From Aminivibrio sp. (GTDB lineage: Bacteria; Synergistota; Synergistia; Synergistales; Aminobacteriaceae), in the NCBI RefSeq assembly GCF_016756745.1, contig NZ_JAESIH010000055.1, positions 1 through 64,000 on the forward strand: a stretch of DNA of 64,000 nt. Reading direction: 5' to 3'. Both the position numbers and the translations under genes were made by a program. Below are positions 15,139-47,680 of the stretch, one piece after another. Position 1 is the stretch's first letter; each line of letters begins with the position of its first letter. The notes beneath the pieces were generated by a model. It made no database searches, had not been told where the DNA came from, and saw only the letters and a list, made by a program, of their open reading frames with translations.

Positions 15139-15154
15139 GTATCTGGAGTAAGGG

Positions 15155-16906: not shown

Positions 16907-16984
16907 ATCTTCTCACCTCGGTCTCGCAAAAAAGAACATTTCGCTTTGATTTCCGAGCGCATGCAGTTCGGCAAAAGAACTATA

Positions 16985-17062
16985 CCGCAATACCACTACT
17001 TCGTAAAACAAAGATTTTCGTTATATAATATTATCTAAATAAATATATTCGGGGAGGAAGCG
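16985..17062. promoter_or_regulatory. AT-rich divergent promoter/operator region (lysR / aldolase-TRAP)
   Basis: Between the divergent genes lies an AT-rich block with TATAAT (17024-17029) inside the palindrome ATAATATTAT. A TATAAT-like box is readable toward lysR. The ribosome site GGGGAGGAAG precedes the lysR ATG at 17065. A LysR-type T-N11-A site is expected here but no single best match stands out. Confidence 0.4.
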
Positions 17063-17064
17063 AA

Positions 17065-20773: not shown

Positions 20774-21679
20774 CTAGGCCAGCAGTCCGGCCTCCTGCAT
20801 CTTCTTCCTCATGTGCTCCAGGACATCGCCGGACGTGGGGAGATTCGGGAGGAAGGGATCGCCCACGTCGAGCCCCATGAGCTTCGCCATGTCCTTGGTG
20901 GCCACGGGGAAACTCGCCAGGTCCATGGAGATCCGGACGGGGTTGAGGACAAACTGGGCCTCCAGGGAGCCCTTGAGGTCCCCTGCCCTGTATTTTTCAT
21001 AGATGGACACCACCAGTTCCGGGAACATGTTCGCCGTGGTGGCGATGGCCCCGTCGGCGCCGTGGACGAGGGCGCCGTAAATCAGCGTGTCTTTGCCTCC
21101 GAAGACTTTGAAGTCCTTTTTTCCGGTCTTCATGAGGCGGACGAACTCGCTCGTGAGGGTCATGTCGCCGCTGGAGTCCTTGATGCCCACGATGTTGTCC
21201 ACGTCGGCGGCAAGGCGCGTCACCAGCGATGTGGTCAGGGAATACCCTACCCTGCCGGGGTTGTTGTAAAGCAGCACCGGCGTTCCGGGGACGGCCTCCG
21301 CAATGGAACGGAAATGGCGGTACAGCTCCTCCTCGGTGGGTTTCAGAAACATGGGCTGGAGCACGGAAACACCGCTAGCACCGCATTCGGCCGCCATCCG
21401 GGCGAGCTCTCTGCATTTCCTGGTCTTGATGGTTCCCATGCCGAAATAGACGGGTACACGGCCCTTCGTCTCGTCGAGGATGATCTGAAGCCCCCGTTTC
21501 ATCTCGTCCTCCTCCACCATGTAGAACTCGCCGTTGCTGCCGAAGGCCAGTATGCCGTGGACACCTCCTTCGATGACAAAGTCCACATGGCGGCGCATTC
21601 TTTCTTCGTCGATGCGCTCGTTTTCGTCAATTATCGTTACTATGGGGGGAATGACTCCCCTGATGAAATCGGTATTCAC
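20774..21679 (-). CDS. DHDPS-family lyase (probable keto-deoxy-sugar-acid dehydratase/aldolase)
   Basis: 301 residues from GTG 21679, chosen for the AAAGGA nine bases upstream; an earlier GTG at 21697 is also possible. Class I aldolase TIM barrel of the DapA/NanA family: LLYNNPGR with the catalytic tyrosine and GIKDSSGD with the Schiff-base lysine. The usual GTTGE is GSNGEF. Last gene of an operon with gudD and garD, both of which make 5-keto-4-deoxyglucarate. The likely job is therefore to dehydrate-decarboxylate or cleave that compound (KdgD- or KDG-aldolase-like) rather than to make lysine. Confidence 0.82.
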   Translation of the reverse strand: MNTDFIRGVIPPIVTIIDENERIDEERMRRHVDFVIEGGVHGILAFGSNGEFYMVEEDEMKRGLQIILDETKGRVPVYFGMGTIKTRKCRELARMAAECGASGVSVLQPMFLKPTEEELYRHFRSIAEAVPGTPVLLYNNPGRVGYSLTTSLVTRLAADVDNIVGIKDSSGDMTLTSEFVRLMKTGKKDFKVFGGKDTLIYGALVHGADGAIATTANMFPELVVSIYEKYRAGDLKGSLEAQFVLNPVRISMDLASFPVATKDMAKLMGLDVGDPFLPNLPTSGDVLEHMRKKMQEAGLLA

Positions 21680-21720
21680 CCTGATCAATCCTTTCACGTC
21701 GTTATGATTGCCGTATTCTT

Positions 21721-23229: not shown

Positions 23230-23237
23230 ATCGAACC

Positions 23238-24725: not shown

Positions 24726-24738
24726 GATCCGTTCCTCC

Positions 24739-25194
24739 TCACGGCAGGGTTATCTGGAAGACCCGACCGAAAAGGTACCACACTGCGGTGGAGAAGATCA
24801 CCGAGATGGCCAGGGATCCAAGGGTGGCCCTGACGGCGGCGCTGGCCCAGGGCTTTCCCGACGCAATGGCCGCCGGTATTTCCCTGAGTTTCTCCACGCC
24901 GTAGTACAGCACGCTGTAGAGAAAAACGAAGATGATGCTCGCCGCCAGGAAGCCGATCATCTCCATGGCCCGGATGTAAAGAGGAAAGAGCACCACCGAA
25001 CCGAAGAGCTTGACCTTGTCCCAGCCCGGTTCGAAGAAGCGCATTGTTTTCATGTCGAGGAACGGCTCGCCCTTGCGGCGACACTGTACTGCCCTCTGGA
25101 TGATCATGACCGCCAGGAGCAGCGCGAGAATACCCATAATGATGGGCGGGAAAATCCAGTGGGACGAGGAAGGTTTGTAACTGACTCTGAACAT
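24739..25194 (-). CDS. tctB: Tripartite tricarboxylate transporter, small permease (TctB)
   Basis: 151 residues with four hydrophobic segments (IFPPIIMGILALLLAVMII at the N-terminus, three more after residue 60). Low conservation is normal for TctB; the call rests on its size, topology and place between tctC and tctA. It partners TctA in the membrane. Confidence 0.88.
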   Translation of the reverse strand: MFRVSYKPSSSHWIFPPIIMGILALLLAVMIIQRAVQCRRKGEPFLDMKTMRFFEPGWDKVKLFGSVVLFPLYIRAMEMIGFLAASIIFVFLYSVLYYGVEKLREIPAAIASGKPWASAAVRATLGSLAISVIFSTAVWYLFGRVFQITLP

Positions 25195-25229
25195 GGCGGA
25201 ATCCTCCGAAATTTCTTTTCCTCGGAAAT

Positions 25230-25262
25230 GCCCGGGAAGGTAGATCCGTCGCCTTCCCGGGC
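25230..25262 (-). promoter_or_regulatory. Intercistronic hairpin between tctC and tctB
   Basis: GCCCGGGAAGG (25230-25240) and CCTTCCCGGGC (25252-25262) form a perfect 11-bp stem 21 bp after the tctC stop, without a T-run. Same position as the hairpins after the other two solute-binding-protein genes in this window. Confidence 0.8.
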
Positions 25263-25282
25263 TGCCGCAGCTATGGGCGCCG

Positions 25283-26299
25283 CTACATCACGAGGTCGTC
25301 GAGGGAAGGAGCGGAGTCGATCAGCCCCTGAAGGGAATCTCTTTTTTTGTAGATGAATTCCTTTGCCGCCGCGGAGTTGAGATAGCTCCCGCGGTAGGAC
25401 ATCTTCGCCATGTCTCCCTTGAACTGAGGATCTTCGGACACGGTCTTCATGGCATCGTCGAGAGCCTTGATCATCTCCGCCGGGAAATTTTTGGGGAGGT
25501 AAATGAGGAAATCCTTGGAGAAACGGAATTCGCTGCCGTCGGTGAGGGTGATGCCCTGGTCGGCATAGGAGGGGACATCGATGCCTTCGACGTTGTCAAG
25601 GAGGCCGACGAACTTCATGGCGATCTTCTTGTCATCGACCTTGGTATAGTCGAGGAGAGAGGTGTAGTCGGCGAAGATCACGTCTGCGTTGCCGTCAATG
25701 AGAAGTTGGATCTTGTCGGAGGTGGAGCCGCCCACGATGACGACGATCCTGTCGGCAATGTCCTTGCCGTACTTGTTCTCGACCCACTTCCAGAAGGCGA
25801 TGAACCCGATGTGGGACACGCCGCCTGCTTCACAGGCCATCCGAACCTTTGCGTCGGGGTTGGCCTTCAGATATCCGGGAATCTCAGCCATGGTGTTGTA
25901 GGGAGCGTCCTTGCGGGCTGCCCAAGCTGCACCGGGGTTTTGGGCGACCCGGGGACCGATCTCCATGTTCTCGAGCCTGTAGATCTCGTCGTAGGCCTTG
26001 AAGGAGACGCCGAGGTAAGTCATGTCATGGAATATCATGATGGTCTTCCCGTCGGGCCGGGCCTTCTGCATGGTATCGAGGGCAACGGCGGCCCCCACGG
26101 CGTCCACCTTCATGTTTGCCCCGAGGGCCTTGCCGAGATGGCGGGACACGGTTTCGGCGATGAGATAGGAGTCTCCCGCCGTGGACGTGGACCCGATCAC
26201 AACCCGGACGTTCTGCCCCTGGAAGGGATTGGCGAATACGGGGGCGGCAAATGCCGCGATTACCAGGAGTGCCGCAAGGATGTTTCTGCTCAGCTTCAT
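25283..26299 (-). CDS. tctC: Tripartite tricarboxylate transporter solute-binding protein (TctC)
   Basis: 338 residues. Signal peptide at 1-23 (MKLSRNILAALLVIAAFAAPVFA). TctC/Bug fold: QNVRVVIGSTSTAGDSYLIAE at the N-terminus and KARPDGKTIMI are family blocks. Receptor for the TctAB permease. The operon partners predict glucarate and/or galactarate as ligand. Flanked by hairpins on both sides (26319-26382 before, 25230-25262 after), so its mRNA segment may be unusually stable. Confidence 0.92.
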   Translation of the reverse strand: MKLSRNILAALLVIAAFAAPVFANPFQGQNVRVVIGSTSTAGDSYLIAETVSRHLGKALGANMKVDAVGAAVALDTMQKARPDGKTIMIFHDMTYLGVSFKAYDEIYRLENMEIGPRVAQNPGAAWAARKDAPYNTMAEIPGYLKANPDAKVRMACEAGGVSHIGFIAFWKWVENKYGKDIADRIVVIVGGSTSDKIQLLIDGNADVIFADYTSLLDYTKVDDKKIAMKFVGLLDNVEGIDVPSYADQGITLTDGSEFRFSKDFLIYLPKNFPAEMIKALDDAMKTVSEDPQFKGDMAKMSYRGSYLNSAAAKEFIYKKRDSLQGLIDSAPSLDDLVM

Positions 26300-26318
26300 T
26301 TCTCTTCCTCCTTTGTAT

Positions 26319-34511: not shown

Positions 34512-35900
34512 ATGAGGAAAGTTTCTCTGCTGGTTTCGACAGGCAACCTCGGAGACAACATCATCGAGAAGGGGACCTTCTACGAAGGCGTCAAGAGAGA
34601 CATCGACTGCTTTGGGGCCGACGCTGGAACTGCCGATGCCGGCCCCACGTTTTTGGGGGCGGATATGCCCCATAATCCCATCGAGTGGGAGCGCCACGAC
34701 CTCGAGATCACCCTCGTGGAGGCCAGGAAAAAGAAGGTGCCCATGATCGTGGGCTCCTGCAGCACCACCGGTACGGACAGAGGGGTCAACCTCTACGGGG
34801 ACATCATCCGCACAGTCGCAAAGGAACGGAAGATGGAACCCTTCACCATGGCCCTCATCTACTCCCAGATACCCTTGGAGGCCCTCCGGGAGCGTGTCAG
34901 GAAAGGCGAGACGGAACCCCTGGGGGCGTCCTTTCCCTTGACGGACGAGGTCCTGGACAACACCACCAACGTCACGGCCAGCATGGGAGTGGAGCAGATC
35001 ATGCACGCCCTGGAAAAGGGGGCGGACGTGATCATAGCCGGGCGGGCCTGCGACGACGCCGTGCTTGCCGCCTACCCCATCTTCAGGGGCTTCGACAGGG
35101 GCGTGAGCCTCCACATGGGAAAGGCCGCCGAATGCGCCTCCCTTGTCTGCTGGCCCCAGAAGGTCAAGGAATCCATCATCGGAACCGTGTACGACGACTA
35201 CTTCACCATCGAGCCCATCCACCCGGACCAGCAGGCAACCCCCCACAGCGTGGCCGCCCACTCCATGTACGAGCGGACCAATCCCTTCATCCAGGCCCTT
35301 CCGGGAGGCATCCTCGACATGCACGCCAGTAAATACGAGGCCCAGACGGACCGGATCTGCAAAGTGTCGGGAAGCCTTTTCATCCCCTCCCCCGACGGCA
35401 GCTACAAGGTGAAGCTTGAAGGGGCCGGAGAAGCGGGACACCGAGTATACCATCTCGTGGGCATCCGGGACACGCGGGCCATCGCTCACCTCGACCAGAT
35501 ACTCTCCGACACACGAAAGAAGGTTTCCGACATCATCGGACCGGCACGGGACGACCAGTACGAACTTTTTTTCCACCCCTACGGAAAGAACGCCATCATG
35601 AAGGAGAACGAGCCTGTGGAGGTCACCCAATCCCACGAGGTCGCCATCGTCATCGAGGTCATTTCGAAGGATCTCGAGCTGGCCACCTCCGTCGCCAAGT
35701 GCGCCAAGTTCCGGTTCTTCTACATGAGCTACCCGGGCCAGATGAACTCCTCGGGAGGATCGGTGGCCCTGATAACAGACGAGCCCCTCTTCCCGAAGAA
35801 CAAGTGTTACCAGTGGACGGTGGACCATCTTCTCACCCTGAAGGATCCCCTGGACCCCGGCATCTTCCGGTACACTTTCGAAACCGTTTCAGGAACGTAG
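34512..35900 (+). CDS. AtuA-family protein (DUF1446)
   Basis: 462 residues with GGAAGGAGA upstream of the ATG. DUF1446/AtuA family, named after the acyclic terpene utilisation gene; the biochemical role is not established. Recognisable blocks: LVSTGNLGDNIIEKG, FGADAGTADAGP, ADVIIAGRACDDAVLAAYP and LPGGILDMHASKYEAQ. No signal peptide, so cytoplasmic. First gene of an eleven-gene operon and accompanied by a DUF4387 gene, its usual neighbour. Confidence 0.88.
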   Translation: MRKVSLLVSTGNLGDNIIEKGTFYEGVKRDIDCFGADAGTADAGPTFLGADMPHNPIEWERHDLEITLVEARKKKVPMIVGSCSTTGTDRGVNLYGDIIRTVAKERKMEPFTMALIYSQIPLEALRERVRKGETEPLGASFPLTDEVLDNTTNVTASMGVEQIMHALEKGADVIIAGRACDDAVLAAYPIFRGFDRGVSLHMGKAAECASLVCWPQKVKESIIGTVYDDYFTIEPIHPDQQATPHSVAAHSMYERTNPFIQALPGGILDMHASKYEAQTDRICKVSGSLFIPSPDGSYKVKLEGAGEAGHRVYHLVGIRDTRAIAHLDQILSDTRKKVSDIIGPARDDQYELFFHPYGKNAIMKENEPVEVTQSHEVAIVIEVISKDLELATSVAKCAKFRFFYMSYPGQMNSSGGSVALITDEPLFPKNKCYQWTVDHLLTLKDPLDPGIFRYTFETVSGT

Positions 35901-35903
35901 GCC

Positions 35904-37301
35904 ATGGAAGCGCAGGGAACGAAGACGCTCCTCACGGAACTGGCGGACTTCTACGCCTCCCTCGGCCGCAGGGACATACCCGGAAACGTCCTGGAGAAGG
36001 CCCGGAGGGTGCTCATGGATTTCCTCTGCGAAACTGCCGCCGGTTTTCACGAAGGGGAACTGGCGGCGATCGCCATAGAGTACGCCAGGGAGACCGGCGG
36101 CAGGGAGGAAGCCACCATTCTCTGCGACGGAAGCAGGGTTCCTGCGCCCTGGGCGGCCCTGGCCACGGGGATCATGGCCCACTCTATCGAGCTGGACGAC
36201 GGGCACCGGTGGGGTACGTCCCACCCCGCCGTGGTGGTCATTCCCGCCGTACTGGCCATGGGGGAGAAGATGAATTCTTCCTTTCACGACATTCTGAAGG
36301 GAATCGCCATCGGGTACGACGTCATGCTCAGGGCGGCACGGTCCATCAACCCTTCCCACCTGAAGCGGGGCTTCCACTCCACCGGGACCTGCGGCTCCAT
36401 CGGGGCCGCCGCCGGGTGCGCCTCCATCCTGGGACTGGCGGGCAAACAGTTCGCCTACGCCATGTCCATGGGAGGGCTTCAGAGCGCGGGGCTCCAGGAG
36501 ATGCTCCACGACCACCCGGGGATCAAGCCCCTGCAGCCCGGCAAATCAGCCATGGCAGGAGTGCTTTCGGCGGAATTCGCCCTTCGGGGGGCCCGGTCCC
36601 CCCGCACCCTCTTCGAGGGGCAACACGGCTGGTTCAAGGCCATGTGCGCCGGGGAATATTCTGAAGAAGCCCTCACAGGAGACCTCGGGAAGCGGTGGGA
36701 AATCCTGCTGACCTACACCAAGCTCTACCCCACGTGCAGGCACTGCCACGCGGCCATTGACCTGGTGAGGGAGGCCAGGAGAGAGCTGGGCTGCACGGAA
36801 CGGGACGTGGAATCCATCCACGTGAAGACCTACCGGCTCGGCATCGTGGAAGTGGGGCAGATCTTCCTGCCCGCCACCTTCGAGGAGGCCATGTTCAGCA
36901 TGCCCTTCTCCCTCGCCGTGGCCCTCAGGAAGGGGAACGTCACCCTCCAGGACTACACGCCCGAACTCCTTGCCGACGGGGAACTGAGGCGGGTCGCATC
37001 CGCCGTGACGATCAGCGAGGACGACCGAATGAACGCCCTGTATCCCGAGGAGCGGGGCGCATGGCTGCGCCTCGTACTGAAGGACGGCAGGAGCTTCGAG
37101 AAGGGAATCCCCGTGGCGAAGGGCGAACCGGAGAACCCGGTCACGGACGGGGACCTCAGGGAAAAGCTGACGGCCATGCTGGCCCCCTACTACCCGGAAG
37201 AATTCGTATCGGGTCTCTGGGAGATATGCATAGGGTCCGAACCCGGTGATGCCGGGTTCGGACGAATACTCGACCATTTCGGGAGGTTTCATACGCCATG
37301 A
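35904..37301 (+). CDS. MmgE/PrpD-family protein 1
   Basis: 465 residues. MmgE/PrpD fold (2-methylcitrate dehydratase / cis-aconitate decarboxylase / iminodisuccinate-handling superfamily). Superfamily residues present: MAHSIELDDGH...SHPAVV, RGFHSTGTCGSIGAAAGCASILGL, YPTCRHCHAAIDLV. Likely a hydro-lyase, epimerase or decarboxylase acting on a di- or tricarboxylate. Begins 4 bp after the AtuA gene and overlaps the DUF4387 gene by ATGA. Confidence 0.87.
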   Translation: MEAQGTKTLLTELADFYASLGRRDIPGNVLEKARRVLMDFLCETAAGFHEGELAAIAIEYARETGGREEATILCDGSRVPAPWAALATGIMAHSIELDDGHRWGTSHPAVVVIPAVLAMGEKMNSSFHDILKGIAIGYDVMLRAARSINPSHLKRGFHSTGTCGSIGAAAGCASILGLAGKQFAYAMSMGGLQSAGLQEMLHDHPGIKPLQPGKSAMAGVLSAEFALRGARSPRTLFEGQHGWFKAMCAGEYSEEALTGDLGKRWEILLTYTKLYPTCRHCHAAIDLVREARRELGCTERDVESIHVKTYRLGIVEVGQIFLPATFEEAMFSMPFSLAVALRKGNVTLQDYTPELLADGELRRVASAVTISEDDRMNALYPEERGAWLRLVLKDGRSFEKGIPVAKGEPENPVTDGDLREKLTAMLAPYYPEEFVSGLWEICIGSEPGDAGFGRILDHFGRFHTP

Positions 37302-37624
37302 AGACCATGAACATCTGCAATCTGGCCAGAACGATCAGGAGCAAGAACGCGGGCAGCTTCATGATCACCCTCGAGATAATCTTCGCCGACCGGCAGGTCT
37401 ACGAGAGGGTGAAACAGTCGGGAGCCGTGACGCAGAAAACCGTAGCCGACGCCTACGGGCTTCCCGAGGACAATATCCTGGACTTCATCTTCTTCGACCC
37501 CGGTATGGGGATCAAGGCGAACATCAAGCGAAAGACTCCCAGCGGCGGCCCCGGTGAGACGGATGTGTACGGCTGCCAGCAGTACGCTCCTCTCTTCTCC
37601 ATTGAAGTCCCCTGGGAGGACTGA
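37298..37624 (+). CDS. DUF4387 protein (AtuA partner)
   Basis: 108 residues. Matches the short DUF4387 family that accompanies AtuA proteins or is fused to them: NLARTIRSKNAGSFMITLEIIFAD near the N-terminus and YGCQQYAPLFSIEVP at the C-terminus. No catalytic motif visible. Translationally coupled to the first PrpD gene (ATGA overlap) and 8 bp before the second, so the AtuA partner genes are interleaved with PrpD genes. Confidence 0.85.
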   Translation: MKTMNICNLARTIRSKNAGSFMITLEIIFADRQVYERVKQSGAVTQKTVADAYGLPEDNILDFIFFDPGMGIKANIKRKTPSGGPGETDVYGCQQYAPLFSIEVPWED

Positions 37625-37632
37625 GGCAGTCC

Positions 37633-38994
37633 ATGGCCGGCCTCACCGAAAAGCTTGCCGCTTTCTCAGCCTCCCTTGCCTGTGACCGGCTGCCTGAGAA
37701 CGTGGTTTCCCAGGCACGGCGCTGCCTCCTTGACACCGTGGGAGCCCTCCTCGCCGGGAGCCGCCTGTCCCTGAGCGGGCAGGCGGGGAGAAAATTCGCC
37801 GAACGGCTCGTGGAACAGGGACAGGCGGTCGTGGCGGGAAGTTCTTTCCGAAAATCACCCATGACCGCTGCCTTCGTCAACGGAATGGCCGCTCACGCCC
37901 TCGAGCTGGATGACGGTTCAAAATACGCCACCTGTCACCCCGGCGCCTCAATCATCCCGGCCTGCCTCGCCCTCGGGGAGGCGGAGGGGATTTCCGGGAA
38001 ACAGCTTGTGGAAGCCATCGCCGCCGGCTACGAGGTGTCGCTCCGTGTAGGGACCGCCATCAACCCGGGCCATTACCTCAGGGGATTCCACCCTACGGGG
38101 ACCATCGCCTCCTTCGGCACAACGGCCGCTGCGTCGAAAATCCTCGGTCTCTCCCCGGAGCTGACGGTCCAGGCCATGGGAATCGCCGGAAGTCTGGCCT
38201 CGGGCATCAACCAGTACGAGATCGACGGCACAGTTTCGAAGCATGTTCACCCTGGAAACGCCGCCAGGAACGGAATTCTCTCCGCCATGCTCGCCCGGGA
38301 CGGCATGACCGGCCCTGCGGAAATTCTCGAGGGAAAGCTCGGCTTCTTTCACTGCTTCGCCGACAGCGCCGATACGGCCCTCGTGGACAGGGAACTGGGG
38401 GAGGACTGGCATTTCCTGCGCATCTACTTCAAGCCCTACTGCTCCTGCAGGTATGTGCACTACGCCATCGAGGCCACGCTGAAAGACCTGGAGCAGCACC
38501 CCTTCCCTCCGGAGGAGATCGGGTCCATCGTGGTGCGCACCCACCGGAACGCGAAACAGGGCTCGGACATTCCGGACTATCGCTCGCCCCTCCATGCCAG
38601 GCTCAGCATCCAGTACGGCATCGCGTCCATCCTGGTCCGCGGGAAGGCGGGCATACGGGAGTACGAGGAGGAGGCCATCGCCGATCCGGAAGTGAGAAGA
38701 GTCTCGGACCTTGTGCGGATCGAGGTGGACGAAGAGATCCAGAAACTCTACCCGAACCCCCGCTCCATGATCGTGGAGATCACGGACAAAAAAGGGAACA
38801 TGGCGTCCGCGAGAATCGACCATGCGAAGGGGGACGCGGAAAACCCCATGTCCGACGGGGAGCTTTTCGAAAAATTCCGGGATGTCACCGGCGGAGTGAT
38901 CCCTTCCGAAAGGGCGGAACGGATCATAACGGCGGCCATGGCAATCCATACCCGTGAGGAGATCGCCTCCTTCACGGAGATGCTCCACATTTGA
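37633..38994 (+). CDS. MmgE/PrpD-family protein 2
   Basis: 453 residues. Keeps the superfamily active-site landmarks: AHALELDDGSKYATCHPGAS, YLRGFHPTGTIASFGTTAAASK, and YCSCRYVHYAIEATL with the late histidine. Its similarity to copies 1 and 3 is modest, so the three are long-separated paralogues rather than fresh duplicates. Cytoplasmic, same message. Confidence 0.87.
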   Translation: MAGLTEKLAAFSASLACDRLPENVVSQARRCLLDTVGALLAGSRLSLSGQAGRKFAERLVEQGQAVVAGSSFRKSPMTAAFVNGMAAHALELDDGSKYATCHPGASIIPACLALGEAEGISGKQLVEAIAAGYEVSLRVGTAINPGHYLRGFHPTGTIASFGTTAAASKILGLSPELTVQAMGIAGSLASGINQYEIDGTVSKHVHPGNAARNGILSAMLARDGMTGPAEILEGKLGFFHCFADSADTALVDRELGEDWHFLRIYFKPYCSCRYVHYAIEATLKDLEQHPFPPEEIGSIVVRTHRNAKQGSDIPDYRSPLHARLSIQYGIASILVRGKAGIREYEEEAIADPEVRRVSDLVRIEVDEEIQKLYPNPRSMIVEITDKKGNMASARIDHAKGDAENPMSDGELFEKFRDVTGGVIPSERAERIITAAMAIHTREEIASFTEMLHI

Positions 38995-39010
38995 GAAGGG
39001 GGAATAAATC

Positions 39011-40396
39011 ATGATGGATACCATTAACGAAAGGCTTTCCAAGTTTTCCTCGGAGCTTCGGTTCGAAGACATACCGACCGATGTGCTCGATCACCTGAAA
39101 AGAGTGATGCTCGATTGCTACGGCTGCGGCCTTTTCGGCTCCACCACTCCGTGGATGAAGATCTACCGGGATGTCCTCGAGAGCATGAACGACCGGCAGG
39201 AGGCGTCCCTCTGGGGCACGGACAGGAAGACGTCCGTCGTCAACGCCATGATGATCAACGGCTCCGCCATCAATTCCTTCGAGCTGGACGACACCCACAC
39301 GGACGGCATCATCCACGTCTCCACCGGCGTGCTCGGCTGCATCACCGCCTTCGCCGAGATGCTCGGAACCATGAGCGGCAAAGATTTCCTCACCGCGGCC
39401 ACGCTGGCCTACGAGGTCTCCTGCCGGGTGGCCGCCCCCGTGGGCATGGAAATCGCCCACCAGGGCTGGAACAACACGGGAACCTGCTGCCCCTTCGGCT
39501 CCACTGCCGGGGTGGGCAACATGCTCGGCCTGACGCCGGAGCAGATGGGGCACGCCATGGGCATCGCTGGAAACTGGGCAGGGGGGCTGCAGGCGGTCCA
39601 GTTCGCCTCCATGGCCAAGCGGATCGTACCGTCCAAGTCCTCTGAAGGGGCGATCATCGGCGCGCTCCTGGCGCAGAAAGGCTTCACCGGCATAGAAGAC
39701 GTCTTCGAGAACAAATTCGGCGGCTTTTACAACTGTTTCACCGACGACGTGTACGATGTGGAACGGACCAGCGGCGAACTGGGTACCCGGTGGGAACTGA
39801 TGGGAATCGGTCTCAAGTTCTACTCCACCTGCCGCAGTAAGCACACCACCATCGGTGCGCTCCGGAAATTCCGGGAGGACCACCCCGACATTAAGCCTGA
39901 CGATATCGCGAAGGTCGTTGTCCACACCACGTCCATCACCCACAAGTACTCCGTCGACGCCGACGCCATAACCAGCGTGGTGTCGGCCCAGCTCAGCCAC
40001 CCCTACGTGTGCGCCGTCACCCTTCTCGAGGGGAACGCCTTCATCGACCAGTTCACCGAGGAAAAGATCAGGGACCCGAAAATCCTGGAGTTCGCGAAGA
40101 AGGTGGAAGTGGTCCACGACGAGGAGATCGAGAAGCTGCCCAGGCACCTCCGCTACACCGTAAAGGTCGACGTTCACCTGAAGAACGGGCAGGTCTTCAA
40201 TCTCCAGGAGACCTTCCCCAAGGGACACCCGAAGAATCCCTTCTCTTCCGACGAACTGCTCTGGAAATTCCGCACCCTCGCAGGAAAGGCCATCAGCGAC
40301 GAGCAGCAGGTGGAGCGGATCATTGAATCGGTACTCCACCTCGAAGACCTGGACAACGTCGGGGAACTCACGGGGCTCCTTTCCGTGAAAAGCTGA
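39011..40396 (+). CDS. MmgE/PrpD-family protein 3 (diverged active-site positions)
   Basis: 461 residues starting at ATG 39011 or the ATG next to it. Same fold, but two landmarks are changed: HPG/HPS is HVS (DDTHTDGIIHVSTG) and the GFHPTG histidine is replaced in HQGWNNTGTCCPFG. The late histidine remains (CRSKHTTIGAL). This suggests a different reaction or a non-catalytic role beside copies 1 and 2. Confidence 0.85.
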   Translation: MMDTINERLSKFSSELRFEDIPTDVLDHLKRVMLDCYGCGLFGSTTPWMKIYRDVLESMNDRQEASLWGTDRKTSVVNAMMINGSAINSFELDDTHTDGIIHVSTGVLGCITAFAEMLGTMSGKDFLTAATLAYEVSCRVAAPVGMEIAHQGWNNTGTCCPFGSTAGVGNMLGLTPEQMGHAMGIAGNWAGGLQAVQFASMAKRIVPSKSSEGAIIGALLAQKGFTGIEDVFENKFGGFYNCFTDDVYDVERTSGELGTRWELMGIGLKFYSTCRSKHTTIGALRKFREDHPDIKPDDIAKVVVHTTSITHKYSVDADAITSVVSAQLSHPYVCAVTLLEGNAFIDQFTEEKIRDPKILEFAKKVEVVHDEEIEKLPRHLRYTVKVDVHLKNGQVFNLQETFPKGHPKNPFSSDELLWKFRTLAGKAISDEQQVERIIESVLHLEDLDNVGELTGLLSVKS

Positions 40397-40414
40397 AACG
40401 GGGGTGAAGAACGG

Positions 40415-41680
40415 GTGGGCAGGACTGCAGCCGAGAAGATCGTTTCCGCGCACTCAGGCTGTGACGCCGTGGCGGGGGACTTCGTCGTAGCCGATGTCGA
40501 CCTGGCCATGATCCACGACACCACGGGCCCGATCGCCATAAAGGCTTTCGAGGAATACGGAAAGGAGCGGGTCCGGGCCCCTTCTAAAATGGTCGTGGTC
40601 CTCGACCATGCCGCGCCGAGCCCCAACGAGCGGATCAGCAACCTTCACGTTCTTTTAAGAAATTTTGCCTCCGCCCAGGGAATTCCCCTCTTCGACGTCG
40701 GGGAGGGAGTCTGCCACCAGCTCGTGGTGGAAAAGGGACTCGTCTCTCCCGGGGGGCTCGCGGTGGGGGCCGACTCGCACACATGCACCTACGGGGCCCT
40801 CAACGTGTTCGCCTTCGGCATAGGGTCCACGGACATGAGCGGCGTCATGCTGACAGGAAAGCTCTGGCTCCGCGTTCCCGGAACGATGAAAGTCCATATC
40901 CGGGGGTCGATGGCCGAAGGAACCTGCGCCAAGGATCTTATGCTCCATCTCATCGGGAGAATCGGCTCCGACGGGGCGGACTACCTCGCCCTCTCCTTCT
41001 GCGGAGATACCGTTCAGGCCATGTCCCTTTCGGAGCGGATGACCCTGAGCAACATGGCCATCGAGTGCGGGGCGAAGGCAGGGCTCATGGAGGCGGATGA
41101 AAAGTGCCTGGCCCATCTCCGGGCGCTCGGGAAGAGTGAAGGGCTGCCCGCCTTCGACGACGGGGACGCGGAGTTCGCATCGATGATCGACATCGACGCC
41201 TCCCGGGTTCCTCCCCAGGTGAGCCCGCCCCATTCCGTGGACACGGCCGTTCCCGTTACGGAGGCCGCCGGGACGGAGATCAGCCAGGTCTATATCGGCA
41301 CCTGCACCAACGGGAGACTTGACGATCTCAGGATCGCGGCGCGGATACTGGCAGGAAAAAAAGTGTCGCCCAACTGCCGGCTTCTTGTCTGTCCTCCTTC
41401 GAGAAAGATCCTGGCCGACGCCATGGCCGAGGGGATTCTGCTGCAGCTGGTGGAAGCAGGGGCGACAATACTTCCCCCCGGGTGCGGACCCTGCCCGGGC
41501 ACGCATCTGGGTGTACCGGGAGACGGTGAAAACGTCCTTTCCACCGCCAACCGCAATTTCAAGGGCAGGATGGGGAACAACAAGGCGGGGGTCTACCTTG
41601 CATCCCCGGCCACGTGCGCCGCCGGCGCCCTCGAGGGACGGATTGCCGACCCGAGGCCGTTTCTCACGGGAAAAAAGTGA
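40415..41680 (+). CDS. Aconitase-family hydro-lyase, large subunit (LeuC/DmdA-like)
   Basis: 421 residues from GTG 40415. Homologous to LeuC, homoaconitase and dimethylmaleate hydratase large subunits. 4Fe-4S cluster cysteines in GTCTNGR and GCGPCPGTH; substrate block GADSHTCTYGALNVFAFGIG. Isomerises or hydrates a dicarboxylate together with the small subunit next to it. The neighbours (PrpD-like genes, dimethylmalate-type lyase, TAXI transporter) argue against leucine synthesis. The closest described analogy is DmdAB of nicotinate fermentation. Confidence 0.88.
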   Translation: MGRTAAEKIVSAHSGCDAVAGDFVVADVDLAMIHDTTGPIAIKAFEEYGKERVRAPSKMVVVLDHAAPSPNERISNLHVLLRNFASAQGIPLFDVGEGVCHQLVVEKGLVSPGGLAVGADSHTCTYGALNVFAFGIGSTDMSGVMLTGKLWLRVPGTMKVHIRGSMAEGTCAKDLMLHLIGRIGSDGADYLALSFCGDTVQAMSLSERMTLSNMAIECGAKAGLMEADEKCLAHLRALGKSEGLPAFDDGDAEFASMIDIDASRVPPQVSPPHSVDTAVPVTEAAGTEISQVYIGTCTNGRLDDLRIAARILAGKKVSPNCRLLVCPPSRKILADAMAEGILLQLVEAGATILPPGCGPCPGTHLGVPGDGENVLSTANRNFKGRMGNNKAGVYLASPATCAAGALEGRIADPRPFLTGKK

Positions 41681-41691
41681 GGAGGAGAGCC

Positions 41692-42198
41692 ATGGAGAAC
41701 ATTCTGACCGGAAGGGCCCACAGGTTCGGGGACAACATCAACACCGACTACATCATCGCGGGGAAATACACGAAGACTCTCGACTTCACCACCCTGGCGG
41801 AGCATGTCTTCGAGGACATAGCCCCGGGATTCTCCCGGAGAGTCCGGCCGGGGGACATCGTTGCGGCAGGCCGCAATTTCGGGTGCGGATCGTCCCGGGA
41901 GCAGGCTCCCATCGCCATCAAGTACGCCGGAATATCCGTCATCCTGGCCCAGTCATACTCCAGGATCTTCTTTCGCAATGCCGTCAACCAGGGCATCCCC
42001 GCCTTTCTCTGCGACACGTCCTGCATCGGCCAGGACGACACGGTCACCGTCAATATCGGGGAGAACTCCGTCGAACTGCCGGAGAAGGGAAAGAGAATCC
42101 CCCTCGTCCCCCTCTCGCCGGTGATGCTTGACATCCTGAGAGAAGGCGGACTGGTGGAGTACCTGAAAAAGAACGGGACATTCATTCTTCCTCGGTGA
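41692..42198 (+). CDS. Aconitase-family hydro-lyase, small subunit (LeuD/DmdB-like)
   Basis: 168 residues from ATG 41692 with GGAGGAG upstream. LeuD swivel domain: GDNINTDYIIAGKY, AGRNFGCGSSREQAP (the active-site serine loop) and FFRNAVNQGIP. Forms a heterodimer with the large subunit encoded 11 bp upstream. Confidence 0.9.
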   Translation: MENILTGRAHRFGDNINTDYIIAGKYTKTLDFTTLAEHVFEDIAPGFSRRVRPGDIVAAGRNFGCGSSREQAPIAIKYAGISVILAQSYSRIFFRNAVNQGIPAFLCDTSCIGQDDTVTVNIGENSVELPEKGKRIPLVPLSPVMLDILREGGLVEYLKKNGTFILPR

Positions 42199-42309
42199 AT
42201 CCGGAGGAACGGAAGGAAGGGGCGTGGTCGCAGGCAGAAAAAAGAGTACCCCTGCGCAGGGTTTTCTCAGGTGTTTTTCGAGAAAAAAACAGACAGGAGG
42301 GATTCTGCA

Positions 42310-43326
42310 ATGAAATTTCGAAAAGACATTGTTATCCGGCTGGTCGCGGCATTCATGGCGATGATGCTGTTCGCCGCCGGCACAGCGAACGGAGAAGTTC
42401 ACCTGAACATGGGGAGCACCTCGTCCACCTCGGGGGTGTACGCCTGGTGCGTGGCCGCCGCCAACGTGATCAACAAAGCCGACAACGGCATCCAGGTCAC
42501 GGTGGTGGAGAGCGGCGCCGGAATGGACAATCTCAGAAAGATCAGCTCCGGGGTGTTCGACTTCGCCATGGCCATCGACCTGCCTGGCTCGCTGCAGCTC
42601 TACAAGGGAATCGAGGGCTTCGAGGGCAAGCAGTTCAAGGATGTCCGCTGGCTCTTCCTGAGAAACATCTTCGCCGACCGCCTGTACGTCCGCAAGGATT
42701 CCGGTGTGACGACCTTCGGCGACCTGAAGGGCAAGAAGTTTTGCCCCGGCATTCCTGGGTCGGCCTCTGCAGCCTACGTGATGCAGTACGACAAAATACT
42801 CGGCCACAATATCCAGCTTGTGCCCTCGGCGCTTGGGGACGCCATTACCGCGCTGAAGGAGAACCGGATCGTGGGGCTTCAGAAATCAAGCGGCCTCAAC
42901 AACATAGACGCTTCCTTGATAGAGGTCAACCTGACCACTCCCCTGACGGTGGTCGGGTATTCCGAGGAGGACGTCAGGAAGATCCAGGAAAAGATTCCCT
43001 ACATGACATTCCTGAAGCGTGAAAAGGGCAGCATCAAGGAGTTCCCTGAGGTTGGACCGATCTGGGAGGAATGCCCCATCGCCGGGGCAGTGGCCACCGC
43101 CGCCATGCCCGAGGAAGTGGGCTACCAGATCGTGAAGGCTTATGTGGAGGGCTTTGACGAAATTGCCGCGGCCTACGGGCCTGTAAAGGGCTTCGACCCC
43201 GTGGGGGACTACTTCAGAAATGCCGGTGACGACGTAGTGCCGGCCCATGCGGGGCTCATCCGCTATGCGAAGGAAAAGGGAATAGAGGTTCCGGAGCGGT
43301 TCATTCCTCCGGAGTACAAAAAATAG
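42310..43326 (+). CDS. TAXI-family TRAP solute-binding protein
   Basis: 338 residues from ATG 42310 (AGGAGG upstream). Signal peptide about 1-25 (KDIVIRLVAAFMAMMLFAAGTANG). TAXI family: LNMGSTSSTSGVYAWCVAAANVIN, VVESGAGMDNLRKISSGVFDFAM and a late EEVGYQIVKA. Extracytoplasmic receptor for the fused permease downstream. The ligand is unknown; the operon enzymes predict a branched or unsaturated dicarboxylate. Confidence 0.9.
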   Translation: MKFRKDIVIRLVAAFMAMMLFAAGTANGEVHLNMGSTSSTSGVYAWCVAAANVINKADNGIQVTVVESGAGMDNLRKISSGVFDFAMAIDLPGSLQLYKGIEGFEGKQFKDVRWLFLRNIFADRLYVRKDSGVTTFGDLKGKKFCPGIPGSASAAYVMQYDKILGHNIQLVPSALGDAITALKENRIVGLQKSSGLNNIDASLIEVNLTTPLTVVGYSEEDVRKIQEKIPYMTFLKREKGSIKEFPEVGPIWEECPIAGAVATAAMPEEVGYQIVKAYVEGFDEIAAAYGPVKGFDPVGDYFRNAGDDVVPAHAGLIRYAKEKGIEVPERFIPPEYKK

Positions 43327-43347
43327 CGCCGCCTGCACCTTATCCCA

Positions 43348-43376
43348 CCGGGCCGCGTATTCTCCGCGCGGCCCGG
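43348..43376 (+). promoter_or_regulatory. Intercistronic hairpin between TAXI receptor and permease genes
   Basis: CCGGGCCGCG (43348-43357) and CGCGGCCCGG (43367-43376) form a perfect 10-bp stem 21 bp after the receptor stop, with no T-run. Third example in this window of a hairpin directly after a solute-binding-protein gene. Confidence 0.8.
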
Positions 43377-43398
43377 CCACCCGCAGGAGGGATGCACT

Positions 43399-45342
43399 GT
43401 GAGCCTTTTTTCATTCGGTCGGATCAAAACAAAGGTCATCTTTACCCTCGGCTTCTTTCTCGCCGTCTTTCAGCTCCTTGCCCCCATATACCTTACGGAT
43501 CTCCTGGACATCCAGTTCAGGGCGATCCATGTCGCCTTCGGCCTCTCCATCGGATTTCTCTACTTTCCCTTCCGCTCCCGGGGAGAGGATAAGCCTCCCG
43601 AAGAGGGCATTTCCCTTTTTGACATCTTCCTGATCACAGTTCTTCTCGCCGCAAATCTCAATGCGTTCTTCAAGGCCTTGGACATCTACATGGGCACCAC
43701 AGGGGCATCAACCCTGGACCTGGTACTGGGGGCAGCGCTCATGCTCCTCGTCCTTGAAGCGGCCAGGAGATCGGTTGGGCTAGCCATTCCCCTGATGGTC
43801 GTTCTCCTGCTGGGCTATATTTTTACGGGAAATTCCTTCCCCGGAATGTGGAAATTAAAGGGAATCAATCTTGAGTTCGTGATCAACTCTCTCTACTACT
43901 CTCCTCTCGGAATATACGGAAGCGTCACGGGTATGTCGGCCACGTTCATCTCCATGTTCATCATCTTCGGTTCCCTGCTTTCGGCCACCGGAGGAGGCCG
44001 AACGTTCATCGACATCGCCCTCGCCATAACGGGGAAATATACCGGAGGGCCGGCAAAGGCAGCAGTAGTCTCGAGCGCCCTTTTCGGGAGCATTTCGGGA
44101 AGTTCGGTGGCAAACGTCATGGTCACGGGAAGCTACACGATTCCGTTAATGAAGCGGCTGGGCTACAGGCCCGAGTTCGCCGCCGCCGTGGAGGCCATCG
44201 CCTCGTCGGGAGGGGGAATCACCCCGCCGATCATGAGCATCAGCGCCTTCATGATGGCCGAGTTTCTTAACATCTCCTATTTTCGCATCATCGGATACGC
44301 CCTTCTCCCCTGTCTTCTCTACTACACCGGGGTCTTCAGCGGCGTCCACTTCAGAACTGTTCGCATGGGAATCGACAAGCTTCCTCCGGAGGAAATCCCC
44401 AAATGGCGGGACATCCTCACCCTCGAGAGAATCGCCGGGCTTCTCGTCCCCACCGGAGTGCTGCTGTATCTCATCGCTATCGGCCAGCCCCTTCAGCTGG
44501 CAGGTTTTTACGCGTGCGTATCGGCTTTGACGGTCTTCCTCCTGGTAGGCATACTGAAGCATAAGATAAAGGATACGATAAATCTCATCATCTCGGCCCT
44601 CTCCGAAGGAGGACAGGACGTGGCCCGGATCGTGCCCATCCTCGTATCGGTGAGCATGCTCGTGAACCTCATAGGCATTACGGGCATTGCGCCGAAGATC
44701 AGCGGCGTCATCCTCCAGGTCGGCGGCACGAACATCTATTTCTCCCTGCTCATCGCCACGGTGGTTCCCTTTCTCCTGGGCACATCCCTGCCGGTGGTCC
44801 CCACCTACGTGCTCTCCGTATCCATCCTGGTGCCCCCCCTGCTCAAACTGGGGATCGATCCGGTGGCGGCCCACCTCTTCTTCATTTACTGGGCAATCCT
44901 CGGGGGTGTGACTCCCCCCACGTGCACCGCTGCCGTGGCGGCGGCGGGAATCGCAAAGGCCAACTGGGTCAAGACAGGATTCTTCGCCGTCAGGCTCGGA
45001 GCGGTGGCCTTCATCCTGCCCTACTTCTTCGCCCTCAACCCGGCGCTTGTCGGGAGGGCTCCGTGGATGAGCATCCTGAGCCACGGAGCAACCGGTTTTA
45101 TCGGGGCCATTTCCATTGCCTACGGCATGTTCAGCCACAAGGAATGCCTGCTGAATCCCCTCCGGTGCGCCGCCTTCATCGTCGGGGGGCTGCTTCTTCT
45201 CTTCCCGGGGACGGTTCATTCGCTCATCGGTCTTGTCGTGGTGGGAACGGCATTCGTTATCGACAGGAAGATCCTGTCACGGGAAACAGGCGCCGGGCCT
45301 GGACACAATCAGAACCACTCCGGGGAGGAGGTCTCGAAGTGA
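43399..45342 (+). CDS. TRAP transporter fused permease (4TM-12TM, TAXI type)
   Basis: 647 residues from GTG 43399 with CAGGAGG upstream. N-terminal four-helix small-subunit part (about 15-190) fused to a DctM-like part (about 190-620) with SALFGSISGSSVANVMVTGSYTIPLM, EAIASSGGGITPPIM and WAILGGVTPPTCTAAVAAAGIA. Moves the TAXI ligand into the cell. Its stop overlaps the start of the lyase gene (GTGA), coupling import to cleavage. Confidence 0.93.
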   Translation: MSLFSFGRIKTKVIFTLGFFLAVFQLLAPIYLTDLLDIQFRAIHVAFGLSIGFLYFPFRSRGEDKPPEEGISLFDIFLITVLLAANLNAFFKALDIYMGTTGASTLDLVLGAALMLLVLEAARRSVGLAIPLMVVLLLGYIFTGNSFPGMWKLKGINLEFVINSLYYSPLGIYGSVTGMSATFISMFIIFGSLLSATGGGRTFIDIALAITGKYTGGPAKAAVVSSALFGSISGSSVANVMVTGSYTIPLMKRLGYRPEFAAAVEAIASSGGGITPPIMSISAFMMAEFLNISYFRIIGYALLPCLLYYTGVFSGVHFRTVRMGIDKLPPEEIPKWRDILTLERIAGLLVPTGVLLYLIAIGQPLQLAGFYACVSALTVFLLVGILKHKIKDTINLIISALSEGGQDVARIVPILVSVSMLVNLIGITGIAPKISGVILQVGGTNIYFSLLIATVVPFLLGTSLPVVPTYVLSVSILVPPLLKLGIDPVAAHLFFIYWAILGGVTPPTCTAAVAAAGIAKANWVKTGFFAVRLGAVAFILPYFFALNPALVGRAPWMSILSHGATGFIGAISIAYGMFSHKECLLNPLRCAAFIVGGLLLLFPGTVHSLIGLVVVGTAFVIDRKILSRETGAGPGHNQNHSGEEVSK

Positions 45343-46229
45343 AGAAAACAACCATGCTCAAAAATATGATTCTCGAACGGAAGGCCCTTGTGTGTCCCGG
45401 AGCCCATGACGCCATCTCGGCGAAGCTCATCGAAAAAGCGGGCTTCAAGGCTCTCCAGGTGAGCGGCTTCGGGCTTTCGGCCACCTACCTCGGCCTGCCG
45501 GACATGGCTTTCATCGGCTTCAGCGACGTGGTCCACTTCACGAAGAATATCGTGGAGGCAGTGAAAGTGCCCGTCATGGCCGACGCCGATACGGGGTACG
45601 GCAACAGCATCAACGCCATGTACGTGACGAGGGAGTTTATCGGGGCAGGGGCGGCGGGGATGAACATCGAGGACCAGGTGTTCCCGAAGCGCTGCGGGCA
45701 CCTCGAGGGAAAGCAGATCATTCCCCTGGAGGAAATGGTGCTGAAGATCAAAGCCTGCAGGGCCGTGAAAGACGAGCTCGATCAGGATTTCGTTCTCAAC
45801 GCCCGGACCGACGCCATAGCCGTGGCGGGAATAGATGAAGCCGTACGCCGGGCGAATGCCTATGCGGAAGCCGGGGCGGACCTGATTTTTGTGGAGGCAC
45901 CCCGTTCCGTGGAGCAGATTGAACAGGCGGTACGGGAGATCAGGGCACCGGTGAGCATCAATCTCATGGACGCCGTTTCAGGAGGCAAAACGCCCCTGGT
46001 CTCCATCGACAGGCTGAGGGAAATAGGGGTGGGAAGGGTCAGCATTCCCGTGGGCCCCCTGTTCGCCGCCGTAAAGGGAATGACTGACTACCTCGACGCG
46101 ATAAGGGGCGACAGGATCGCGGAAGGAAGAACGGAGCTTGTGGCGCCGTTTTCCGATTTCAAGGACCTCGTGGGATTCGAAATGTTCAGGGAACTGGAGA
46201 AGGAGTATCTTCCCCGATTTGTGGAATAG
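45339..46229 (+). CDS. Isocitrate lyase/PEP mutase superfamily lyase (2,3-dimethylmalate / methylisocitrate lyase-like)
   Basis: 296 residues from GTG 45339; the longer frame upstream belongs to no gene. TIM barrel of the ICL/PEPM family: GAHDAISAKLIEKAGFKALQVSG, metal/substrate loop ADADTGYGN (81-89), EDQVFPKRCGH with catalytic Cys119, and NARTDA. Such enzymes split 2,3-dimethylmalate to pyruvate and propionate or methylisocitrate to pyruvate and succinate. Next to a LeuCD-type hydratase the dimethylmalate reaction is attractive, but the specificity is not proven. Confidence 0.86.
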   Translation: MKKTTMLKNMILERKALVCPGAHDAISAKLIEKAGFKALQVSGFGLSATYLGLPDMAFIGFSDVVHFTKNIVEAVKVPVMADADTGYGNSINAMYVTREFIGAGAAGMNIEDQVFPKRCGHLEGKQIIPLEEMVLKIKACRAVKDELDQDFVLNARTDAIAVAGIDEAVRRANAYAEAGADLIFVEAPRSVEQIEQAVREIRAPVSINLMDAVSGGKTPLVSIDRLREIGVGRVSIPVGPLFAAVKGMTDYLDAIRGDRIAEGRTELVAPFSDFKDLVGFEMFRELEKEYLPRFVE

Positions 46230-46297
46230 GGCTCCGGAGAATTCCCTGGGCAGCGGCAAAGCTTTTCAGATTCAGTGCAAAGGGAGGTGTAAGAATA

Positions 46298-47680
46298 ATG
46301 AAGCGCTGTGTTGCGTGGGGTATCGTGATTCTGCTTCTCGTGGGTATTTCCGGGCTCGCGCCTGCCGCGGAAGGGGACGTTCTCGTCCTTGAAGGAAGCG
46401 CTGAGGAAGTGGGCAGACGCTGGGGTGAGACGAACAAGGAATCCATCATCAAGGCCTTCAACGCGTTCCTTTCCCGGGCAGAGGGCAAGGACGAACAGCT
46501 TCGGAGCTTCGCAAAGCTTTCCATCGATCTCTCGAAAAAAATCGGCTGTTCGTACTGGATCGACGAGCTGAACGCCATCGCCGACACCGCCGGCATCGAC
46601 AGGGAACTCTACATCGCATTCACGTTCGGCAGATACAGGGACCTGGCCCTCCTGTACAAAGGCGTCGGGTGTACCACCTTCGCCGTCACCTCTCCGGCAA
46701 CGAAAAACGGACAGATCATCTTCCACAAAACCCGGGAGACGGCCTCCGACCTGCAGTCAGGGTACCTCAAGCGGATAACCGGAGTCCAGGGCACTGACAG
46801 GCAGCCCTACAAGTTCTTCGGGGAGATGGGTACCGCGGATACGGGCATCTCATTCTTCGTCAATGAAAAAGGGCTTGCCGGAGGGGCGGATGTTCCCTCC
46901 CAATGGCAGAACAGGGAGTGTTATGTCGGCCCCTACAAGGGGAACCTCCCCTTCGTCACGCCGCCGAAATACGACGGGTTCATGAACCACTATGTTCCCC
47001 GCTACATCGCCGAGCACTGCAAGGACGTGGATGAAGCCAGGGAAGCCCTTCACTCCTTCGCGGAGAAAGGATACCTGGCCAGCGGAAAGTGGGGAACCAA
47101 TTACCTGTTCGTCGACGCAAGGGGCAAAATACTGCAGATAGCGGACGACTGCTACAAAATCATCGAAGAGCAGACAAACCCGGCGCTGGAAAAGGACGGA
47201 AAGTCGTGGAAGGGAATTTACTTCACCGTCCACAGGGAGAACGACTATGGTACCCCCGAGGACGCCCTCGTCGCAAATTACGGAAAAATCACCGTGGAGC
47301 TGGTAAACTCGCCCAAGGCGGCAAAACACCCTGCCATGTGGAATTTCCCGAGGGCGCAGTCCGGCGCGACCATCGTCATCGACCCCGAGTTTCCCGAAAC
47401 GCTGACCACCATCTTCGTGACTCTTCCGGCCTACAGCTACTCCATCCCCTTCTTCATGGGGGCGAATGCGACACCGAAAGCCCTTGCCGACGGGACCGTG
47501 TACTCCGTGCAAAAGGACAGCTTCAGGTACAGCGAGTTCTACGAGGCAGGAATCAACGACCTTTGGAGGGCGTTCATCTATGACATCAGAGAGAGAGTCA
47601 GGAAGGGCGAGGACGTGACAAAGGATCTGAACGGTTTCTTCGTTCAAATGGTGGACCAGGTTCTGAAAATGAACAAATAA
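46298..47680 (+). CDS. Secreted C45-family (acyltransferase-like) Ntn hydrolase
   Basis: 460 residues. Signal peptide at 1-24 (WGIVILLLVGISGLAPAAEG). Contains GVGCTTFAV with Cys125, the position of the autoproteolytic nucleophile in acyl-CoA:6-aminopenicillanate acyltransferase (C45) proteins, plus the family pattern GRRWGETNKESI near the N-terminus. Probably an amidase releasing an acid outside the membrane. Last gene of the operon, 68 bp after the lyase, so it may liberate the compound that the TAXI system imports (inference). Confidence 0.78.
   Translation: MKRCVAWGIVILLLVGISGLAPAAEGDVLVLEGSAEEVGRRWGETNKESIIKAFNAFLSRAEGKDEQLRSFAKLSIDLSKKIGCSYWIDELNAIADTAGIDRELYIAFTFGRYRDLALLYKGVGCTTFAVTSPATKNGQIIFHKTRETASDLQSGYLKRITGVQGTDRQPYKFFGEMGTADTGISFFVNEKGLAGGADVPSQWQNRECYVGPYKGNLPFVTPPKYDGFMNHYVPRYIAEHCKDVDEAREALHSFAEKGYLASGKWGTNYLFVDARGKILQIADDCYKIIEEQTNPALEKDGKSWKGIYFTVHRENDYGTPEDALVANYGKITVELVNSPKAAKHPAMWNFPRAQSGATIVIDPEFPETLTTIFVTLPAYSYSIPFFMGANATPKALADGTVYSVQKDSFRYSEFYEAGINDLWRAFIYDIRERVRKGEDVTKDLNGFFVQMVDQVLKMNK

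Follow-up and report, generated by a model that had tools for sequence, protein, structure and literature searches.

Which compound is degraded by an operon whose enzymes recall several pathways at once? The question is raised by eleven genes at positions 34,512–47,680 of a 64,000-nucleotide stretch of Aminivibrio sp. DNA (contig NZ_JAESIH010000055.1 of assembly GCF_016756745.1; hereinafter the window, to which all coordinates below refer unless another locus is named). The host is an uncultured member of the Synergistota and has a 2.94 Mb genome rated 100% complete. Pfam/NCBIfam assignments cover an AtuA protein, a DUF4387 protein, three MmgE/PrpD proteins (PrpD1–3), an aconitase-family pair (LeuC and LeuD), a TAXI receptor, a fused TRAP permease, a phosphoenolpyruvate (PEP)-mutase/isocitrate-lyase-family protein and a C45 hydrolase. 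On balance, we favor a catabolic pathway that is independent of coenzyme A (CoA) and acts on an imported branched acid of the citrate, aconitate or citramalate type. The TAXI-TRAP system would take up a branched carboxylic acid, which the three PrpDs and the Fe–S enzyme LeuCD would dehydrate, rehydrate or epimerize, thereby interconverting a tertiary alcohol (citrate/citramalate type) and a 2-hydroxy isomer (isocitrate/alkylmalate type) via an unsaturated acid. The AtuA/DUF4387 pair would split the tertiary 3-hydroxyacid into a 2-oxoacid and a short free acid, while the PEP-mutase-family lyase would split the other isomer into a 2-oxoacid and an acid such as succinate or propionate; a single-NRD NrpR would repress the operon at GGAA-N6-TTCC operators. 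We infer both the order of these reactions and their CoA independence.

The AtuA/DUF4387 pair as a probable CmlAB-type lyase

The AtuA (PF07287; DUF1446; 34,512–35,900, forward strand) and DUF4387 (PF14330; 37,298–37,624, forward strand) proteins are homologs of the two subunits of CmlAB, with the same predicted fold. In profile searches against the PDB, the sole complex matched by either protein was 9ERQ/9EVF, AtuA hitting chain A, 'citramalate lyase subunit A (cmlA)', with an E-value of 5e-97 and DUF4387 hitting 9ERQ chain B, 'citramalate lyase subunit B (cmlB)', with 2e-30. The AlphaFold2 model built for the AtuA of the window (predicted local distance difference test score 84) matched 9evf_A with a template-modeling (TM) score of 0.82 and gave no other significant match. 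The 9EVF entry, released on 2025-10-08, is titled 'citramalate lyase - ADP - pyruvate complex', and 9ERQ_A shares 91% identity with the AtuA protein of the E. coli glutamate-mutase/methylaspartase cluster; its assignment is understandable because a citramalate lyase is the expected last step of that cluster. The DUF1446 gene next to methylaspartase was remarked on as having no known function (Kronen and Berg, PMC4682846), and a literature search found no paper describing the AtuA/DUF4387 (citramalate lyase) enzyme. Given the homology of the pair to both citramalate lyase chains, the operon probably holds two C–C lyases rather than one. The window AtuA is 31% identical to CmlA and falls in a clade apart from the methylaspartate-linked sequences; hence, the pair should be named a CmlAB homolog in preference to a citramalate lyase. 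ADP binding by CmlAB is taken from the PDB title, and the enzyme would presumably work without CoA.

The wider family occurs in several distinct contexts. AtuA/DUF4387 genes are next to fumarate hydratase on Klebsiella and Neorhizobium plasmids, whereas in Variovorax and Halomarina they lie close to LeuCD and a lyase of the same family as that of the operon. In Acetomicrobium, one locus (L067 8616–16643) has the order AtuA-DUF4387-TctCBA-aconitase-NADP-isocitrate dehydrogenase, with both of the latter enzymes above their curated cut-offs (937 bits against 612 for the aconitase). By analogy across these neighborhoods, the family may cleave tertiary 3-hydroxyacids. For the L067 pair, citrate would be a plausible substrate, making this pair a candidate CoA-free citrate lyase. 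The Klebsiella locus is on a conjugative plasmid (L055 10203–24610) that bears CTX-M and FosA3 alongside AtuA-DUF4387, the fumarate hydratase, several aldehyde dehydrogenases and a haloacid dehalogenase, and is thus a catabolic cluster traveling with resistance genes.

PrpD1 (35,904–37,301, forward strand) is encoded between the two CmlAB-like subunit genes and its gene overlaps that of DUF4387 by an ATGA. The initial annotation suggested that AtuA, DUF4387 and PrpD form one enzyme or a set of sequential steps. The two-subunit appearance and the coupling of PrpD1 agree with this, while AtuA/DUF4387 can no longer be treated as anonymous, being a CmlAB homolog. In the strongest form of this idea, AtuA, PrpD1 and DUF4387 would constitute a single hydratase–lyase complex, with the remaining genes forming a separate pathway in a shared operon. 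PrpD1 indeed sits between the lyase subunit genes, not only where the locus is full but also in metagenome-assembled genomes (MAGs) of Atribacterota and Chloroflexota in which PrpD2 and PrpD3 are not adjacent, and one congener (G025, see below) kept the rest of the operon after losing LeuCD and the second lyase. However, many loci hold all the parts together, and the solved CmlAB structure comprises two proteins (chains A and B) and no PrpD; we regard such a complex as unlikely. Long open frames in one locus (G037/L009) had the appearance of a PrpD1-DUF4387 fusion, which was ruled out as the coordinates place the two genes out of frame.

Conservation of the operon

All eleven genes were recovered where the initial annotation had placed them, on a single strand with intergenic gaps of −4 to 111 bp, some being ATGA or GTGA overlaps. 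It had also proposed comparing gene order across genomes. We scanned bacterial and archaeal genome contigs for DUF4387, obtaining 19 loci, and followed this with tblastn searches using the window proteins. Ten genes and the divergent regulator keep the same order in most loci read, with only the C45 gene being accessory: the arrangement NrpR (reverse strand)/AtuA-PrpD1-DUF4387-PrpD2-PrpD3-LeuC-LeuD-TAXI-TRAP-lyase was found again by tblastn in Synergistaceae, Thermovirga and an Aminobacterium-like genome. In Acetomicrobium, a LeuCD-TAXI-TRAP-lyase-NrpR segment is inverted into a divergent block, and an Armatimonadota MAG has the catalytic genes without the transporter. The AtuA-PrpD1-DUF4387 order additionally recurs in Armatimonadota, Atribacterota and Chloroflexota MAGs. 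A phylum-wide search recovered PrpD3 orthologs in 24 of 188 Synergistota genomes from six families; these are 70–96% identical, whereas the next paralogs do not exceed 34%. Since the order recurs in related genomes and PrpD3 orthologs have this distribution, neither gene order nor gene content can be attributed to chance. The active-site segments of PrpD1–3, the KRCGH motif of the lyase and the cysteine motifs of LeuC hardly vary across 12–14 orthologs. Thus, the operon is real and conserved and looks functional. Separately, AtuA-PrpD1-DUF4387 in the Atribacterota locus (L022 63–11867) is accompanied by TRAP-TAXI genes, a methyltransferase of the MttB family and a long protein that carries a MutL domain at its C-terminus.

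In G025, a genome of the same genus, the operon has suffered two separate deletions (L079 12900–13140 and 16150–16420). One took away LeuC with most of LeuD and the other the central part of the lyase gene, leaving the rest of the operon intact. As both were lost, LeuCD and the lyase are best viewed as one co-functional module. The same genome has a second LeuC-LeuD-lyase set on contig C15 (lyase 70% identical, LeuD loop HTKT) beside TctC and TAXI-TRAP genes. A paralogous lyase (68%) is present on contig C77 of the Aminivibrio genome (L098 1–6842) and on G025 C15 (L097), in clusters with RraA, TAXI and TRAP genes that also hold a fumarate-reductase-like flavoprotein, an IclR-like regulator and a hydroxyacid-dehydrogenase-like protein.

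The hydro-lyases, the second lyase and the substrate

Members of the MmgE/PrpD family dehydrate, epimerize or decarboxylate their substrates. The nearest solved relatives of the three operon versions differ: B. subtilis IRG1/MmgE for PrpD1, iminodisuccinate epimerase for PrpD2 (37,633–38,994, forward strand) and mammalian cis-aconitate decarboxylase for PrpD3 (39,011–40,396, forward strand). In all orthologs of PrpD3, an asparagine replaces the histidine before the TGT motif. No PrpD genes were found elsewhere in the same genome. The kinship of PrpD2 raises the prospect of a pathway for an imino- or N-acylated dicarboxylate of the iminodisuccinate type, released by the C45/AAT-type amidohydrolase (46,298–47,680, forward strand) and epimerized by PrpD2. 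The C45 protein has a signal-peptide-like start and is probably secreted, and its gene is found 3′ of the operon in close relatives. Nevertheless, the operon contains no ammonia- or C–N lyase, the C45 gene is present in only a few loci (L077, L078, L080) and missing from others (e.g., L081), and family likeness does not fix the substrate; we accordingly rate this pathway as very improbable.

The LeuC-type large subunit (40,415–41,680, forward strand) has the three Fe–S cysteines, and the LeuD-type small subunit (41,692–42,198, forward strand) bears the substrate-recognition loop. This loop of the small subunit sets the specificity in the homoaconitase/isopropylmalate isomerase enzymes (PMC7308503). 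It reads YTKT in every ortholog examined, as against YLRT in homoaconitase (2pkp) and YLVY in isopropylmalate/citramalate isomerase (3vba), placing an invariant lysine where homoaconitase has an arginine. The lysine therefore hints at a third carboxylate, which suggests a tricarboxylate as the substrate of LeuCD. The operon LeuD has neither a hydrophobic YLVY-type loop nor leu neighbors. Three other aconitase-family loci are present in the genome, one of which, on contig C43, lies in a set of leuA-leuC-leuD-leuB-like genes and has the LeuD loop YLVS next to the leuA/leuB-like genes. In light of this set, the operon LeuCD is not the leucine enzyme and a role in leucine synthesis is ruled out; nor is it the only isopropylmalate isomerase candidate of the genome, whereas the initial annotation had said that its proposal would be overturned if the pair were the only one.

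The C–C lyase of the PEP-mutase/isocitrate-lyase family (45,339–46,229, forward strand) overlaps the permease gene by a GTGA and has the KRCGH motif. It is best matched by the petal death protein, an alkylmalate lyase, and not by PrpB, scoring 246 bits against the PrpB cut-off of 354. Its loop is of the petal-death-protein type, GGKTP, as opposed to the EFGxTP of PrpB. Together with LeuCD, it could thus be placed in a route like the DmdAB-Dml end of nicotinate fermentation, in which LeuCD would hydrate an alkylmaleate (a branched dicarboxylate of the dimethylmaleate, citraconate or mesaconate type), the lyase would yield pyruvate and propionate, and AtuA/DUF4387 with the PrpDs would supply or divert citramalate-type isomers. 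The affinities of the lyase favor this route, as do the separability of the LeuCD-lyase module, which recurs with TAXI/TctC on contig C15 of G025 and is also seen in Variovorax and Halomarina, and the naming of CmlAB for a C5 dicarboxylate. Against it, the LeuD recognition loop has an invariant lysine at a position where a hydrophobic residue would suit a small alkyl side chain, and no PrpF/Mii-type isomerase was found in the genome. We consider it a possible, if doubtful, alternative. Thus, of the original proposal, the catabolic operon and the LeuCD-lyase module (both lost together in G025) stand, while the dimethylmaleate-type branched dicarboxylate is weakened by a YTKT loop close to the YLRT of homoaconitase.

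The rest of the genome narrows the choice of pathway. We found no citrate or methylcitrate synthase in this complete genome (the search recovered its control in 13 of 14 genomes), no PF04303 match for a PrpF/Mii-type methylitaconate isomerase and no glutamate mutase E subunit. The single PF01642 protein, the candidate that bears on a 2-methyleneglutarate mutase, is probably a methylmalonyl-CoA mutase. In the absence of citrate synthase, PrpF and glutamate mutase, the genome encodes neither a methylcitrate cycle nor a full nicotinate or methylaspartate route, the lack of a methylcitrate cycle being in line with the initial annotation. Family-level likeness would still allow a methylcitrate operon with PrpD, LeuCD in place of AcnB, and PrpB. 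However, the three PrpDs score at most 62 bits against PrpD cut-offs of 458–950 and, as with the lyase, all scores are below every curated PrpD/PrpB equivalog cut-off. As a cycle this is ruled out, and the operon is hardly to be credited as a methylcitrate one, even though uptake of methylcitrate from outside is possible.

Within the favored branched-acid pathway, a tricarboxylate substrate (aconitate, citrate or a methylated form) is a tentative choice, and a dicarboxylate is a slightly weaker contender; on the sequence evidence, we lean only slightly to the tricarboxylate. A more specific proposal, which we offer as speculative, is that AtuA/DUF4387 acts as an ADP-dependent lyase with a new specificity, which cleaves an imported tricarboxylate (such as an aconitate, citrate or methylcitrate stereoisomer) and may conserve ATP in doing so, with the second lyase as a parallel branch and a bacterial NrpR with the archaeal nitrogen operator controlling carbon catabolism, the whole forming an undescribed CoA-independent pathway.

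Several points weigh against the favored pathway. The two specificity determinants disagree, as the LeuD lysine points to a tricarboxylate and the petal-death-like lyase loop to a dicarboxylate; indeed, GGKTP would suit alkylmalates as well. Three PrpD paralogs exceed the needs of any simple scheme. The identity of 9ERQ/9EVF as a citramalate lyase rests on PDB molecule names and titles, and we infer the reaction type of the window pair itself from its homology. Furthermore, at motifs conserved in CmlA, the window AtuA has GRACDD for GRAYDP and WPQKVKES for TPGSGSD; with these signatures missing and an identity of about 31%, its substrate probably differs. Finally, there is no growth on citrate in Acetomicrobium mobile (PMC3739175), a species whose genus includes carriers of the cluster.

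Regulation and expression signals

A gene on the reverse strand (33,221–34,231) codes for an NrpR-type regulator with a winged helix and one NRD domain match (PF08461, PF01995). It is the sole NrpR-type protein found in the genome and the divergent neighbor of the operon in most loci. The 280 bp separating it from AtuA contain two perfect GGAA-N6-TTCC palindromes, one proximal to the NrpR gene (34,277–34,290) and the other at 34,444–34,457. Archaeal NrpR has this sequence as its operator (PMC2723118) and is released by 2-oxoglutarate (PMC4902934). Across 17 intergenic regions totaling 7010 bp, which include related species and are hence not fully independent, 11 regions hold 15 perfect sites, as compared to a mean of 0.2 and a maximum of 2 in 1000 dinucleotide shuffles. 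With both the helix-turn-helix plus NRD architecture and the operator at the promoter present, the regulator is, by sequence, a bacterial NrpR. The only sigma-70-like promoter noted for the operon, TTGACA-18-TATCAT (34,399–34,428, forward strand), is upstream of AtuA and strong by consensus match (11/12 positions). The second palindrome begins 16 bp downstream of its −10 box, a placement apt to block transcription, and NrpR would thus repress the operon. Its effector may be 2-oxoglutarate or a pathway acid. At another locus (L085 7454–12604), an AtuA-DUF4387 pair lacks a PrpD; a gene for a peptidase C26 (class I glutamine amidotransferase) accompanies it and an NrpR-type regulator is encoded nearby, but no perfect GGAA-N6-TTCC operator was found there.

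The transporter is encoded between LeuD and the lyase. The TAXI-family TRAP solute receptor (42,310–43,326, forward strand) starts with an ATG preceded by an AGGAGG site, a longer frame from a GTG at 42,271 being judged less likely, and is followed by the fused TRAP permease (43,399–45,342, forward strand), identified by family assignment. No terminator was found 3′ of the C45 gene. An Rfam search for riboswitches across the window gave no match.

Neighboring clusters and significance

Immediately beyond the NrpR gene, the segment 29,358–32,558 (reverse strand) codes for one or more siroheme decarboxylase-type AsnC-like proteins and an AhbC/NirJ1-like radical SAM protein, which would belong to a pathway that makes haem (or d1) from siroheme. 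A probable D-glucarate/galactarate catabolic cluster at 20,774–28,515 (reverse strand) comprises a GntR regulator, a glucarate dehydratase-like protein (767 bits, below the cut-off of 829), TctC, TctA, a galactarate/altronate dehydratase family protein and a dihydrodipicolinate synthase family protein. At 12,516–17,952, a DctPQM TRAP transporter is flanked by two RraA-family proteins with an adjoining LysR regulator, constituting another small-acid uptake cluster.

In databases, the widespread families AtuA (DUF1446) and DUF4387 continue to be labeled as unknown or 'terpene utilisation'. Recognizing them as a family of two-subunit lyases that bind ADP, and whose several subfamilies serve distinct pathways, would make their specificities directly testable. 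The operon itself is a compact conserved set for assay, comprising a receptor, four hydro-lyase-type enzymes and two lyases, and might bring to light a new carbon source for Synergistota living anaerobically, while the NrpR/operator pair presents a testable instance in which bacteria would employ an archaeal nitrogen regulator to control carbon catabolism.

Comparison with known systems

The operon pair shares with CmlAB (9ERQ, 9EVF) the homology of both subunits, the fold (TM 0.82), the two-gene pairing and the AHxxYE, RD, YGK and HE motifs, but differs in its 31% identity, its own subfamily motifs, the PrpD inserted between the subunits and the lack of a mutase or methylaspartase nearby. The presence of a LeuCD-type hydro-lyase and a PEP-mutase-family lyase within one operon is common to DmdAB-Dml, from which our system departs in the lack of a PrpF/Mii match in the genome, the addition of three PrpDs and a CmlAB homolog, and the homoaconitase-like loop. 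With the methylcitrate cycle (PrpC, PrpD, AcnB/AcnD, PrpB) it has in common the PrpD, aconitase and PEP-mutase-family lyase families; unlike that cycle, it has no PrpC, its PrpDs and lyase score far below the equivalog cut-offs and it is a transporter-linked operon. The Acetomicrobium L067 locus likewise combines an AtuA/DUF4387 pair with a carboxylate transporter and an aconitase-family enzyme, although its AtuA is of another clade, its aconitase is a single fused protein and it has no PrpD. Lastly, the regulator matches archaeal NrpR in its helix-turn-helix and NRD domains and in the operator at the controlled promoter, but is bacterial, has a single NRD match and adjoins a carbon-catabolic operon in place of nitrogen genes.

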